Below, one piece after another: positions 19,376-22,641 of a stretch of DNA of 64,000 nt. Under the pieces are notes generated by a model that searched no databases, had not been told where the DNA came from, and saw only the letters and a program-made list of their open reading frames with translations. Numbering within the stretch: position 1 is the stretch's first letter; each line of letters begins with the position of its first letter. The position numbers were made by a program, and so were the translations under genes. The stretch is taken from contig NZ_JABAFC010000011.1 of NCBI RefSeq assembly GCF_012843435.1, positions 1-64,000 of the forward strand. Reading direction: 5' to 3'. The stretch is from Psychrobacillus sp. BL-248-WT-3. GTDB taxonomy: Bacteria; Bacillota; Bacilli; Bacillales_A; Planococcaceae.

Positions 19376-19834
19376 ATGACTCTTTCTAGGAACATACAAA
19401 CTATATTGAATGGGACGATTCAATCTATAAAAGCAGTCATCCCTTTAAACCTTAGTTATACCCCACCTACTCTCTTGTCTCAACCATATGAGGTAGTGGA
19501 AATGGCTGTACTGATCGGTATTGTAGGCGATATGAAAGCAAGAATTATAATAGATGCATCTTCTCATTATTTTTCTTCTGTTGGTGCATCTATGTTTGGT
19601 ATGCCTTTAGAGGGAGAAATGCTTGAATCTTTTACAGGCGAACTAGGAAACATGATTGCAGGTAATTTATGTACGGTTGTTGCACAACAAGGATTAGAAA
19701 TAGATATAACCCCTCCTACTGTAATTGTAGGACAAAGTAAGTTATATGGTTTCCAACAGGCTTTCTTTCTACCCGTAGAAGTTACTGACATAGGTCCGAT
19801 GGCTATCATCTTAACGATTGATGAGGATGAATAG
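19376..19834 (+). CDS. CheX/CheC-type chemotaxis phosphatase-like protein
   Basis: 152 aa, one CheX-like domain. The family signature ExxN of CheY-phosphate phosphatases is present as E89-L-G-N92, followed by MIAGN. CheC, CheX and FliY use this Glu/Asn pair to dephosphorylate CheY. There is a single copy of the motif, as in CheX, and no chemotaxis genes nearby, so it is an orphan and may act on another response regulator. GGAGG precedes the ATG at 9 bases. Monocistronic, with a terminator at 19901. Confidence 0.8.
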   Translation: MTLSRNIQTILNGTIQSIKAVIPLNLSYTPPTLLSQPYEVVEMAVLIGIVGDMKARIIIDASSHYFSSVGASMFGMPLEGEMLESFTGELGNMIAGNLCTVVAQQGLEIDITPPTVIVGQSKLYGFQQAFFLPVEVTDIGPMAIILTIDEDE

Positions 19835-19900
19835 TGCTATACATAATTTTTATATTTTTATAAACAAAGAGGATGGTACAAAATCATCCCTATAAGTTAA

Positions 19901-19944
19901 AAGTCCTAGAATTTTACAAATAGTAAAATTTTTAGGGCTTTTTT
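19901..19944 (+). terminator. Terminator of the cheX-like gene
   Basis: The 17-base arm 19901-19917 pairs imperfectly with 19923-19940 around a 5-base loop, then T6. The loop-proximal AATTTTAC/GTAAAATT matches the terminators at 8112 and 47601. Confidence 0.82.
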
Positions 19945-19954
19945 CATTGCATCA

Positions 19955-20127
19955 TAGCAGTTGTTCTCGCTAAAGCGAGTAGAGACTGGTGAGACAGATA
20001 AGACATCACAACCACGCGCGTAAGCGATGGGTGGTGGCTTATCGCTCACCCCAAGGAAAGCGCCGTCTGGCGCTATGGAATTTGCTTTGCATCATAAAAT
20101 CAACCCTACTCTTTAACAAAGCCAACA
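19955..20127 (+). repeat. Dispersed repeat, family 2 (short copy)
   Basis: A shortened relative of the ~390-bp element at 36221 and 55900. It has the central hairpin (GGTGAGACAGATAAG pairing with CTTATCGCTCACC, about 20 kb) and the right end (AAATCAACCCTACTCTTTAACAAAGCC). The left ~200 bp is absent. The gap 19835-20352 otherwise contains the terminator at 19901 and the cba control region. Confidence 0.75.
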
Positions 20128-20266
20128 TAAAAGTGCATTGATCCTCTATACACTTCAATTACCCCGATAAAAAATAACGTAAATCATAACTTTTATCATA
20201 TTCCCTATTTGTTTTTCTGTTACTTTCAAATTATTTCACAGTATCTTCACATATAACCTTTGTATG

Positions 20267-20282
20267 TGTGATAAATATCACA
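20267..20282. promoter_or_regulatory. Candidate Fnr-binding site of the ba3 oxidase operon
   Basis: TGTGATAAATATCACA fits the Bacillus Fnr/CRP consensus TGTGA-N6-TCACA exactly and is a 7-2-7 palindrome. A -10 hexamer TATGAT at 20304-20309 predicts a start near 20316, which puts the palindrome centre at -41.5, the classical activating position for B. subtilis Fnr. No good -35 is present, as expected for an activated promoter. Confidence 0.72.
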
Positions 20283-20352
20283 TCAACTTTGTTTTTTTAA
20301 ATTTATGATGTACCTATAGAAAAAGAAGGAAAGTTTTGGAGGTGTAAGACAG

Positions 20353-20475
20353 ATGTCCAAAAAACAAAATAAAGAACCAGAACTAAAAGGGACGCTTATA
20401 TCAGTTAGCGTTGTCGGTATATTTATTTTAGTCACTTGGTTTTTCGCATTCTATTTATTTATTGACAGATTTTAA
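20353..20475 (+). CDS. cbaD: ba3-type cytochrome c oxidase subunit IIa (micro-protein)
   Basis: 40 aa. ATG with GGAGGTG upstream. A charged N-terminus (SKKQNKEPELKGT) precedes one transmembrane helix (about residues 14-37, LISVSVVGIFILVTWFFAF) and a short FIDRF tail. Size, single helix and position immediately before subunit II match the CoxIIa/CbaD subunit of Thermus and Bacillus ba3 oxidases, where it supplies the helix missing from the one-helix subunit II. It is followed by GGAGG and the subunit II start 20 bases later. Confidence 0.82.
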   Translation: MSKKQNKEPELKGTLISVSVVGIFILVTWFFAFYLFIDRF

Positions 20476-20495: not shown

Positions 20496-20972
20496 ATGCA
20501 TATTCACAAGTATGAAAAATGGTGGATAACATTTGGTGTTAGTTCACTAGTTTTATTTTTAATAATAGTTGGTTTTAGCGCCTTCCACTATGGTTCACAT
20601 CCACCAAGTGCAAAAGTATATATTGATCATGAGCGAGTAGACGAGATTGCTCCATTCAATAACCCAGGAGTTCACAAAGTAGAAGGTAAAGAATGGGATT
20701 ATGAGATAGTAGTAGTTGCATCCGCATTCTTCTATAACCCACAAGAATTTGAAGTTCCACTAGGTTCTACGGTTAAATTTATAGCTACAACGAAAGACGT
20801 TATACATGGCTTTCAGATAGTAGATACAAATATTAATATGATGCTTGAACCAGGTTACGTTTCAGAATATGTAACAACTGTAGATAAAGCTGGAGAGTAT
20901 TTAGTTTTATGTAACGAATATTGCGGTGTAGGACACACGTCTATGACATCGAAGTTAAAGGTGGTTGAGTAA
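20496..20972 (+). CDS. cbaB: ba3-type cytochrome c oxidase subunit II
   Basis: 158 aa with one N-terminal membrane helix (about 10-31) and an extracytoplasmic cupredoxin domain. All CuA ligands are present: His104 in IHGFQ, Cys139, Glu141, Cys143, His147 and Met150 in the C-terminal box CNEYCGVGHTSM. CuA takes electrons from cytochrome c. The single helix and short length are diagnostic of the ba3 (B-type) oxidases, not the long caa3 CtaC. There is no fused cytochrome c domain. Middle gene of a three-gene operon; its stop overlaps the ribosome site of subunit I. Confidence 0.94.
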   Translation: MHIHKYEKWWITFGVSSLVLFLIIVGFSAFHYGSHPPSAKVYIDHERVDEIAPFNNPGVHKVEGKEWDYEIVVVASAFFYNPQEFEVPLGSTVKFIATTKDVIHGFQIVDTNINMMLEPGYVSEYVTTVDKAGEYLVLCNEYCGVGHTSMTSKLKVVE

Positions 20973-20973
20973 C

Positions 20974-22641
20974 ATGGCAACAATAACAGAAAAAGCCCAA
21001 AGCTTTGTGAAAGTTGACCGTCGTGATGGCAAGCTTGCAATGGCTCATATTCATGTAGCTTTTATTGCACTATTAATTGGAGGACTTTGCGGACTCTTAC
21101 AAACCCTTGTACGTTCTGGGCAATTCACCCTTCCTTGGGGTATAGGTTACTATCAATTATTAACTGTTCATGGTGTTTTATTAGGACTTATTTTAACTAC
21201 TTACTTTATATTTGGTTTTCAAATTGCTGCTGTTAGCCGTACTTCCGGCACATTAACAGATAAACAGAGAACACTAGGTTGGATTGGTTTTTGGACAATG
21301 ACAACCGGGACTACTGCTGCTGCAGTAATGGTTTTATTAAACGAAGCATCTGTGTTGTATACTTTTTATGCACCACTTCAAGCGCATTGGATTTTTTATG
21401 TTGGGATGGCATTAGTTGTAGTAGGCTCATGGATTGGCGGAGCTGGCCTGATCATGAAATATATGGAATGGCGTAAAGCAAATCCAAAGCAACCTAGCCC
21501 ATTATTAACTTTTATGGTTATTGTAAATTTAACTATGTGGATTATTTGTTCACTTGGTGTAGCAGTCGAGGTAGTATTCCAATTAATCCCATGGTCTTTA
21601 GGCTGGGTAGATAAAATCGATGTTTTACTCTCTCGTACACTTTTCTGGTATTTCGGTCACCCATTAGTATACTTCTGGTTATTGCCAGCTTATATGGTAT
21701 GGTATGTGATCATCCCGAAAATTATTGGAGGTAAAATTTATTCGGACGCACTAGCAAGATTATCCTTTATGCTGTTCTTAATCTTCTCTATCCCAGTTGG
21801 ATTCCATCATCAATTGACAGAGCCAGGTATTGATTCATTTTGGAAGTACTTGCAAGTTGTTTTAACAATGATGGTAGTTATACCTTCCCTTCTGACTGCT
21901 TTCTCTATGTTTGCTTCATTTGAGATTCGTGGAAGACAGCTTGGAGGAAAAGGCGTATTTGGATGGTTTAAAAAGCTACCTTGGAAGGATGCGCGATTCC
22001 TAGTACCATTTATCGGAATGGCTGCCTTCATCCCTGCTGGGGCTGGTGGTATTATCAATGCATCTAACCAAATGAACCAAGTAGTACATAATACTATCTG
22101 GGTTACAGGTCATTTCCATCTTACTTTAGCAACAACTGTCGTTTTAACATTCTTTGGAGCAGCCTATTGGTTAATCCCTCACCTTACTGGTAGAGTGTTG
22201 ACTAAACAAATGAATAAGCTAGCTATTATACAAGGTATTGTTTGGGCAGTAGGTATGTCCATCATGTCTGGGGCAATGCATATTGCTGGATTATTGGGAG
22301 CCCCCCGCCGATCAGATTTCTCAACCTATGGTGAATCTGCCCAGGCAGCCGAGTGGGTTCCGTACCAAATCGCACAAGCAGTTGGCGGTACAATTTTATT
22401 CATCGGTATCATCTTAGTCTTATATATAGTAGCTCAATTAGTATGGTTTGCTCCTAAAGGTGATACAGAATTTCCAATTGGAGAAGTATCCGAAAATGCA
22501 GAAAAAACACCGATGGCACTCGAAAACTGGAAAATATGGTTAACGATTTGTATTTTCTTAATTTTATTTGCTTATACGGTTCCGGTGTTTGATATGATTC
22601 AAAATGCTCCTCCAGGTTCAAAAGGTTATAAATTCTGGTAA
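20974..22641 (+). CDS. cbaA: ba3-type cytochrome c oxidase subunit I
   Basis: 555 aa, polytopic, with about 13 membrane helices. Low-spin heme ligands lie in TVHGVLLGL and VTGHFHLT, the CuB-ligand His with the cross-linked Tyr lies in WYFGHPLVYFWLLPAY, and the other CuB histidines lie in GFHHQL. The lack of the A-type proton-channel motifs fits B-family oxidases. It reduces oxygen to water while pumping protons. ATG at 20974 with AGGTGG upstream; an in-frame TTG three codons earlier is unlikely. Last gene of the operon, ending in the terminator at 22671. B-type oxidases have high oxygen affinity, which fits the Fnr-like site upstream. Confidence 0.95.
   Translation: MATITEKAQSFVKVDRRDGKLAMAHIHVAFIALLIGGLCGLLQTLVRSGQFTLPWGIGYYQLLTVHGVLLGLILTTYFIFGFQIAAVSRTSGTLTDKQRTLGWIGFWTMTTGTTAAAVMVLLNEASVLYTFYAPLQAHWIFYVGMALVVVGSWIGGAGLIMKYMEWRKANPKQPSPLLTFMVIVNLTMWIICSLGVAVEVVFQLIPWSLGWVDKIDVLLSRTLFWYFGHPLVYFWLLPAYMVWYVIIPKIIGGKIYSDALARLSFMLFLIFSIPVGFHHQLTEPGIDSFWKYLQVVLTMMVVIPSLLTAFSMFASFEIRGRQLGGKGVFGWFKKLPWKDARFLVPFIGMAAFIPAGAGGIINASNQMNQVVHNTIWVTGHFHLTLATTVVLTFFGAAYWLIPHLTGRVLTKQMNKLAIIQGIVWAVGMSIMSGAMHIAGLLGAPRRSDFSTYGESAQAAEWVPYQIAQAVGGTILFIGIILVLYIVAQLVWFAPKGDTEFPIGEVSENAEKTPMALENWKIWLTICIFLILFAYTVPVFDMIQNAPPGSKGYKFW

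Follow-up and report, generated by a model that had tools for sequence, protein, structure and literature searches.

A predicted Fnr-dependent promoter of the ba3 oxidase operon in Psychrobacillus and the probable exchange of its oxygen-sensor site in another genus

The ba3 oxidase operon and its promoter region

The window, that is, the whole stretch of 64,000 nucleotides of Psychrobacillus sp. BL-248-WT-3 DNA that was analyzed, contains three consecutive genes for the subunits of a terminal oxidase, preceded by a palindrome, a -10 element and a ribosome binding site (Table 1). Subunit I was read from its ATG; in the list of open reading frames it starts at the TTG at 20965. A PDB search placed the ba3 oxidase 1EHK among the top group of matches for both subunits I and II, the best PDB matches reaching E values of 1.6e-124 and 6.3e-29, respectively, as compared with the values for 1EHK given in Table 1. 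In subunit II, a CuA-type motif, CNEYCGVGH, was read by eye. The HPLVY sequence of subunit I aligns with HPIVY of 1EHK, with the cross-linking tyrosine present. This tyrosine matters because some CbaAB proteins of Bacillus have been proposed to be NO reductases, and it serves to call an oxidase (PMC3475470). Of 234 loci coding for a relative of subunit I, the closest being from Psychrobacillus, the best 80 were kept as our set of orthologues; the tyrosine is found in all 80, of which 64 read HPLVYFW and 16 HALVYFW. The aligned tyrosine marks the predicted enzyme as an oxidase and not as one of the related NO reductases; together with CoxIIa, the CuA domain of subunit II and the likeness of subunit I to 1EHK, it assigns the operon to the ba3-type cytochrome c oxidases.

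Table 1. Features of the oxidase promoter and operon, in window coordinates
Feature	Position	Strand	Remarks
First TTCACA of paired box	20235-20240	-	TGTGAA on the - strand; putative site of ResD or another OmpR-type regulator
Second TTCACA of paired box	20246-20251	-	Starts 11 bp, or one helical turn, after the first
Fnr box (predicted), TGTGATAAATATCACA	20267-20282	+	Centre 20274.5; 7-bp arms around AA
-10 element TATGAT	20304-20309	+	From sequence; no -35 found
Predicted transcript start	A20316	+	Inferred from the -10 position
Ribosome binding site GGAGGTG	20338-20344	+	From sequence
CoxIIa (oxidase subunit IIa), 40 aa	20353-20475	+	PF08113, E 4.4e-7
Oxidase subunit II, 158 aa	20496-20972	+	PF00116; 1EHK_B, E 6.5e-29
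Oxidase subunit I, ba3 type, 555 aa from ATG	20974-22641	+	PF00115; 1EHK_A, E 1.8e-124

The palindrome matches TGTGA-N6-TCACA, the consensus of class II Fnr boxes, without a mismatch. The preliminary description of this DNA had named the same consensus and had combined the site with the TATGAT hexamer to arrive at a centre of -41.5, and both elements are present as described: with the -10 element where it is, a start at A20316 would place the centre of the palindrome at -41.5. When positions 19830-20360 were scanned with the consensus, the + strand gave no sigma-70-type promoter and the - strand gave two, a number at chance level. The arrangement, for which the start is predicted, fits a class II promoter, with the centre at about -41.5 lying over the -35 position, a -10 element present and a -35 element absent. 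Between a CheX-like gene and the oxidase promoter, the window also carries one copy (19989-20073) of an interspersed repeat of about 85 bp; at least 40 matches to it were found including the window copy (40 of 96 candidates scored), the others showing 91-96% identity and lying on both strands.

Conservation of the site and of its spacing

To follow the site through the orthologues, we searched 690 bp upstream of each locus. Among the best 80 of 234 loci, the site was exact in 43, had one mismatch in 30, two in five and three in two. Its core, GTGA-N6-TCAC, was retained in 77 of the 80, as compared with 0-2 for each of five control palindromes made of the same bases. The preliminary description had pointed to close relatives as a check on the palindrome, and they bear it out: seven of the eight closest loci (L015-L022) have it exactly and one with a single mismatch, at an unchanged distance from the -10 element. 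In ten other genera of the window's family that have fnr, 36 of 39 fetched promoters contained the exact site, two a site with one mismatch and one a site with two. A second oxidase copy devoid of the site (L233) was left out of these 39 promoters; the fnr-bearing genera g8 and g1, the genomes G098, G143, G146, G231, G232 and G325, and the second G219 copy lay outside the promoter fetch.

The spacing analysis took in 130 loci whose Fnr site had no more than one mismatch. The best -10 element started 29 bases past the centre in 95 loci and 30 bases past it in 11, where shuffling leads one to expect about 4-5 loci for each offset; the best -10 element was at some other offset in 24 loci. TATGAT was the commonest hexamer at this position (64/130). 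Matches to a -35 element averaged 2.14 out of 6, as against 2.74 out of 6 at control positions of the same loci.

Upstream of the palindrome, the two TTCACA repeats are conserved. The first is exact in 110 of the 130 aligned loci, starting 41-38 bases ahead of the centre of the Fnr site; the second is exact in 108, starting 30-28 bases ahead of it. Tandem repeats with one-turn spacing are compatible with an OmpR-type regulator such as ResD, the site of which consists of TGTGAA repeats. The TTCACA repeats, one helical turn apart, possibly form a candidate site for ResD or for another OmpR-type protein. In Bacillus cereus, Fnr and ResD are reported to associate (PMC3520743).

Two further elements were seen in parts of the set. 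A second Fnr-like site, 42-43 bp farther upstream than the first, is exact in L040, L061 and L065 and has one mismatch in L066 and L081. In 32 of the 80 loci, including L027-L036, L039, L046 and L079, a conserved block, ATGAACAATTTGTGAA, occurs downstream of the Fnr promoter region; L039, L046 and L079 lack the Fnr site and retain the block, which is possibly a second promoter.

The regulator predicted to act at the site

We assign a probability of about 0.9 to the reading that the site is a real low-oxygen switch for the ba3 oxidase, worked by the Bacillus-type Fnr of this genome. Two proteins encoded in the genome, L005 and L006, exceed the cut-off for a Crp-type helix-turn-helix domain; no NCBIfam model was above its cut-off for either. 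L005 consists of a Crp-type sensor domain and a helix-turn-helix domain (PF00027 and PF13545) followed by a C-terminal CX2CX4C motif, and its residues C219, C222, C227 and D133 are invariant in all 82 aligned sequences. The fourth cluster ligand of Bacillus subtilis Fnr is Asp141. With these domains, the cysteine motif and the matching aspartate, L005 has the sequence features of a Bacillus-type Fnr; the Fnr homologue with a cysteine cluster on which the preliminary description depended is thus encoded in the genome, with C219, C222 and C227 as its cysteines. The cysteine ligands of the B. cereus Fnr cluster carry the same numbers (PMC3520743). L006 is YeiL-like, at a score below the cut-off of that NCBIfam model, and has no cysteine cluster.

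An Fnr of this kind might read nitric oxide and not oxygen, in which case the operon would answer NO stress. In vitro, the clusters of FNR are sensitive to NO (PMC8139620), and NO reductase is the function assigned to part of the CbaAB family (PMC3475470). We consider an NO response improbable, given that subunit I keeps the oxidase tyrosine in the window as well as in all 80 orthologues and that NO reduces the binding of FNR, which would switch the operon off (PMC8139620).

The assignment to Fnr draws on the gene neighbourhood and on the distribution of fnr. In genera g2, g4, g12 and g13 we inspected 21 regions, 20 of them fetched round fnr, plus L259. In 16 of the 21, fnr and the oxidase share a strand, fnr lying 71-377 bases ahead of the oxidase's exact site and no open reading frame of 80 aa intervening between fnr and the site; in L298 and L302, one open reading frame of 256 or 322 aa intervenes between fnr and the oxidase; and three regions show no oxidase (L289, L292 and L303, the last of which runs to the contig end). 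A head-to-tail order of fnr before the ba3 operon, with the exact site between them, is seen in L259, L284-L288, L290, L291 and L293-L302.

A survey of 247 genomes of the family, each at least 95% complete, found subunit I (E up to 1e-100) in 212 and fnr (E up to 1e-20) in 161. Outside genus g17, 153 of 186 genomes have both genes, 23 neither, eight only fnr and two only the oxidase, an association with a Fisher p of 1.5e-20, which ignores relatedness; genomes with no match, including those with neither gene, were counted partly by subtraction. In G202, a genome of the window's own genus, the fnr match is interrupted by three in-frame stops, and the best subunit I match is not a close one (E 1.1e-159). 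This genome seems to have lost the two parts of the circuit together, despite which it was counted as having both genes. In three genomes of the 80-locus set (G022, G025 and G065), no Fnr match reached the C-terminal cysteines; two of their loci, L039 and L079, lack the site, and the third, L036, keeps it, with only a weak Crp-type match found. Conversely, at L046 fnr is present and the site is lost. Elsewhere in the family, genera that gave no fnr match mostly have no oxidase either. This shared loss could also reflect a life without low-oxygen respiration. Linkage and shared loss alike go with the cysteine-bearing Fnr. They argue against L006, which belongs to the Crp/Fnr family and lies above the Pfam cut-off for HTH_Crp_2, as the protein that reads the site in place of Fnr, an assignment that we regard as very unlikely.

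Rex, a sensor of the NADH/NAD+ ratio, might repress the oxidase from the same palindrome. The genome encodes a Rex-type DNA-binding domain (L308), and TGTGA-N6-TCACA is also the core of the Rex site, TTGTGAA-W4-TTCACAA (PMC2883068). However, the bases that define a Rex site, A after TGTGA and T before TCACA, are absent: none of 98 exact sites reads TGTGAA-N4-TTCACA, and 124 of 130 sites have T or C as their first inner base. Moreover, promoters that have no -35 element are as expected for activation and not for repression by Rex, and the adjacency of fnr and the oxidase in several genera also speaks against it. We regard a role of Rex at this site as very unlikely.

The frequency of the motif contributes nothing to the choice of Fnr. 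The 3.80-Mb genome contains four exact copies and 63 copies with at most one mismatch, as compared with 65 for the reversed control; the window contains 21 copies with at most two mismatches, where 29 are expected. Frequency does not set the site apart from a chance occurrence. Since the motif is not over-represented, the case rests on comparison, and it is carried by position, geometry and conservation. The preliminary description had proposed a search for further sites of the same form, and this check yielded nothing, the counts being at chance level and no regulon emerging. Three other exact sites are present in the genome: L002 precedes, by 46 bp, an open reading frame that by eye resembles an NDH-2-type dehydrogenase; L003, which has the Rex form, lies about 400 bp before a transporter-like open reading frame; and L004 has no long open reading frame nearby. 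No Fnr regulon is obvious from these sites, and none can be claimed. A chance match without function, with which motif counts equal to the control would agree, is contradicted by the retention of the core in 77 of 80 loci, mostly with the same spacing, and by its place next to fnr in other genera, and we give it next to no credence.

Under the preferred reading of a low-oxygen Fnr switch, a fall in oxygen would allow Fnr to keep its [4Fe-4S] cluster, held by C219, C222, C227 and probably D133. Fnr would then bind at -41.5 beside RNA polymerase, replace the missing -35 element as a class II activator and switch on coxIIa-subunit II-subunit I. The TTCACA pair would probably add a second redox input, most likely through ResD. 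We infer binding, activation, the oxygen signal and the assignment to ResD from sequence, and the cell's turn to the ba3 enzyme at low oxygen from the families to which the proteins belong. B. cereus Fnr is reported to bind some promoters without its cluster (PMC3520743), and the oxygen dependence is therefore not certain here. The preliminary description is right on the sequence and, as far as sequence tells, supported on its meaning; it mentions neither the TTCACA pair nor the adjacency of fnr and the oxidase in other genera nor the probable exchange in genus g17.

Genus g17 and the biology of the predicted switch

Genus g17 comprises 61 genomes (G252 was assigned to it by its number only), which contain 53 oxidase orthologues and no fnr match. 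None of the 40 promoters fetched for these 53 orthologues contains the exact Fnr site, and the one-mismatch matches in L165 and L168 are out of register. A different palindrome, TAGGG-N4-CCCTA, is exact in 38 of the 40, with one mismatch in L181 and two in L192. In the 39 loci used for spacing, from which L192 was left out for having more than one mismatch, its centre lies 30 bases before the -10 element in 38 and 31 bases before it in one, where Fnr sites mostly show 29-30. Upstream, TGTGAA repeats 11 bp apart are present with at most one mismatch in 36 and 27 of the 39 loci, respectively. Matches to a -35 element are slightly above control (mean 2.79 vs 2.46), with four of six matched in 10 of 39 loci, and these promoters may have a weak -35 element. 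The palindrome is rare, with 1-6 copies per genome in eight genomes (reversed control, 0-6). Among promoters with an Fnr site, it occurs with at most one mismatch in none of 40 loci of the family and in three of 80 others. The two genomes of g5 have both sensors, and their Fnr-site promoters have no TAGGG box.

NreB has been described as functionally equivalent to FNR, and its partner NreC as binding a GC-rich palindrome at narGHIJ, nir and narT (PMC8139620). An NreB-like kinase (E up to 1e-60) is encoded in 59 of the 61 g17 genomes and in 84 of 247 family-wide; the window's genome gave no match at the same threshold. Four of the 59 g17 matches contain stop codons (G274, G275, G277 and G288). 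The CX2CX11CX2C motif was present in the kinase of all ten g17 genomes looked at. The two genomes that lack the kinase, G247 and G252, also lack an oxidase orthologue, as do six that have nreB (G258, G268, G290, G292, G293 and G300).

The palindrome is also found at the nitrate reductase genes of g17. In L304, Pfam identifies the alpha, beta and gamma subunits of nitrate reductase, a GAF protein (NreA-like), a kinase and a LuxR-type regulator (NreC-like); narJ receives no Pfam name. The palindrome precedes narG in L304 and L305; in L306 and L307 it precedes a ScdA-N/hemerythrin gene that itself lies ahead of narG. These four regions were chosen because they had the palindrome. L306 has a further TAGGG-N4-CCCTA box before an MFS transporter gene. 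In 20 g17 regions fetched regardless of the box (L309-L328), the palindrome was located 133-154 bases before the N-terminal motif of narG in all 15 regions bearing that motif (five exact, ten with one mismatch). L309, L313 and L315 have neither narG motif nor box, and in L319 and L321 there is a box and the narG motif was not found. Control palindromes, with one mismatch allowed, were found in 0-4 of the 20 regions.

The published form of the NreC site is GTAGGG-N4-CCCTAC. Because the g17 palindrome also precedes narG ahead of nreABC, NreBC has probably replaced Fnr at the oxidase promoter of g17. The order narGHJI-nreABC, the CX2CX11CX2C kinase and a GC-rich nar palindrome are as in the NreABC system of Staphylococcus (PMC8139620, PMC8774646, PMC4601167), from which g17 differs in that the palindrome stands before the ba3 oxidase as well, where its relatives have the Fnr box. 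We think it likely that the -41.5 slot is an interchangeable oxygen-sensor socket, in which g17 has put an NreBC box for the Fnr box, in register to within about one base and with the TGTGAA repeats and TATGAT kept. This probable exchange is a more surprising result than the window promoter itself.

By type, the element in the window is, as predicted from its sequence, an ordinary class II Fnr promoter. Bacillus narG, narK and arfM have class II Fnr-dependent promoters. Common to these and the window promoter are TGTGA-N6-TCACA at about -41.5, a -10 without a -35 element and an Fnr with CX2CX4C; the window promoter differs in that its target is a ba3 oxidase and not genes of nitrate respiration or fermentation, and in the conserved paired TTCACA box upstream. 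In proteobacteria, FNR, FixK and ANR control cbb3 oxidases. The predicted circuit resembles these in that an FNR-type oxygen sensor would switch on a high-affinity oxidase at low oxygen, and is unlike them in oxidase family and Fnr subtype. In a search of largely open-access literature, the titles and abstract openings among the matches listed contained no report of Fnr with a ba3 or cytochrome oxidase in Bacillus; the Fnr-ba3 link may have been predicted elsewhere.

Taken together, these comparisons provide the ba3 oxidases of Bacillaceae and Planococcaceae with a likely regulator and a physiological meaning, namely respiration at low oxygen. If the exchange in g17 is true, control of this oxidase has passed there to a second iron-sulfur oxygen sensor that is unrelated to Fnr, and the genus would be a natural case in which one [4Fe-4S] oxygen sensor substitutes for another while the site stays unmoved.
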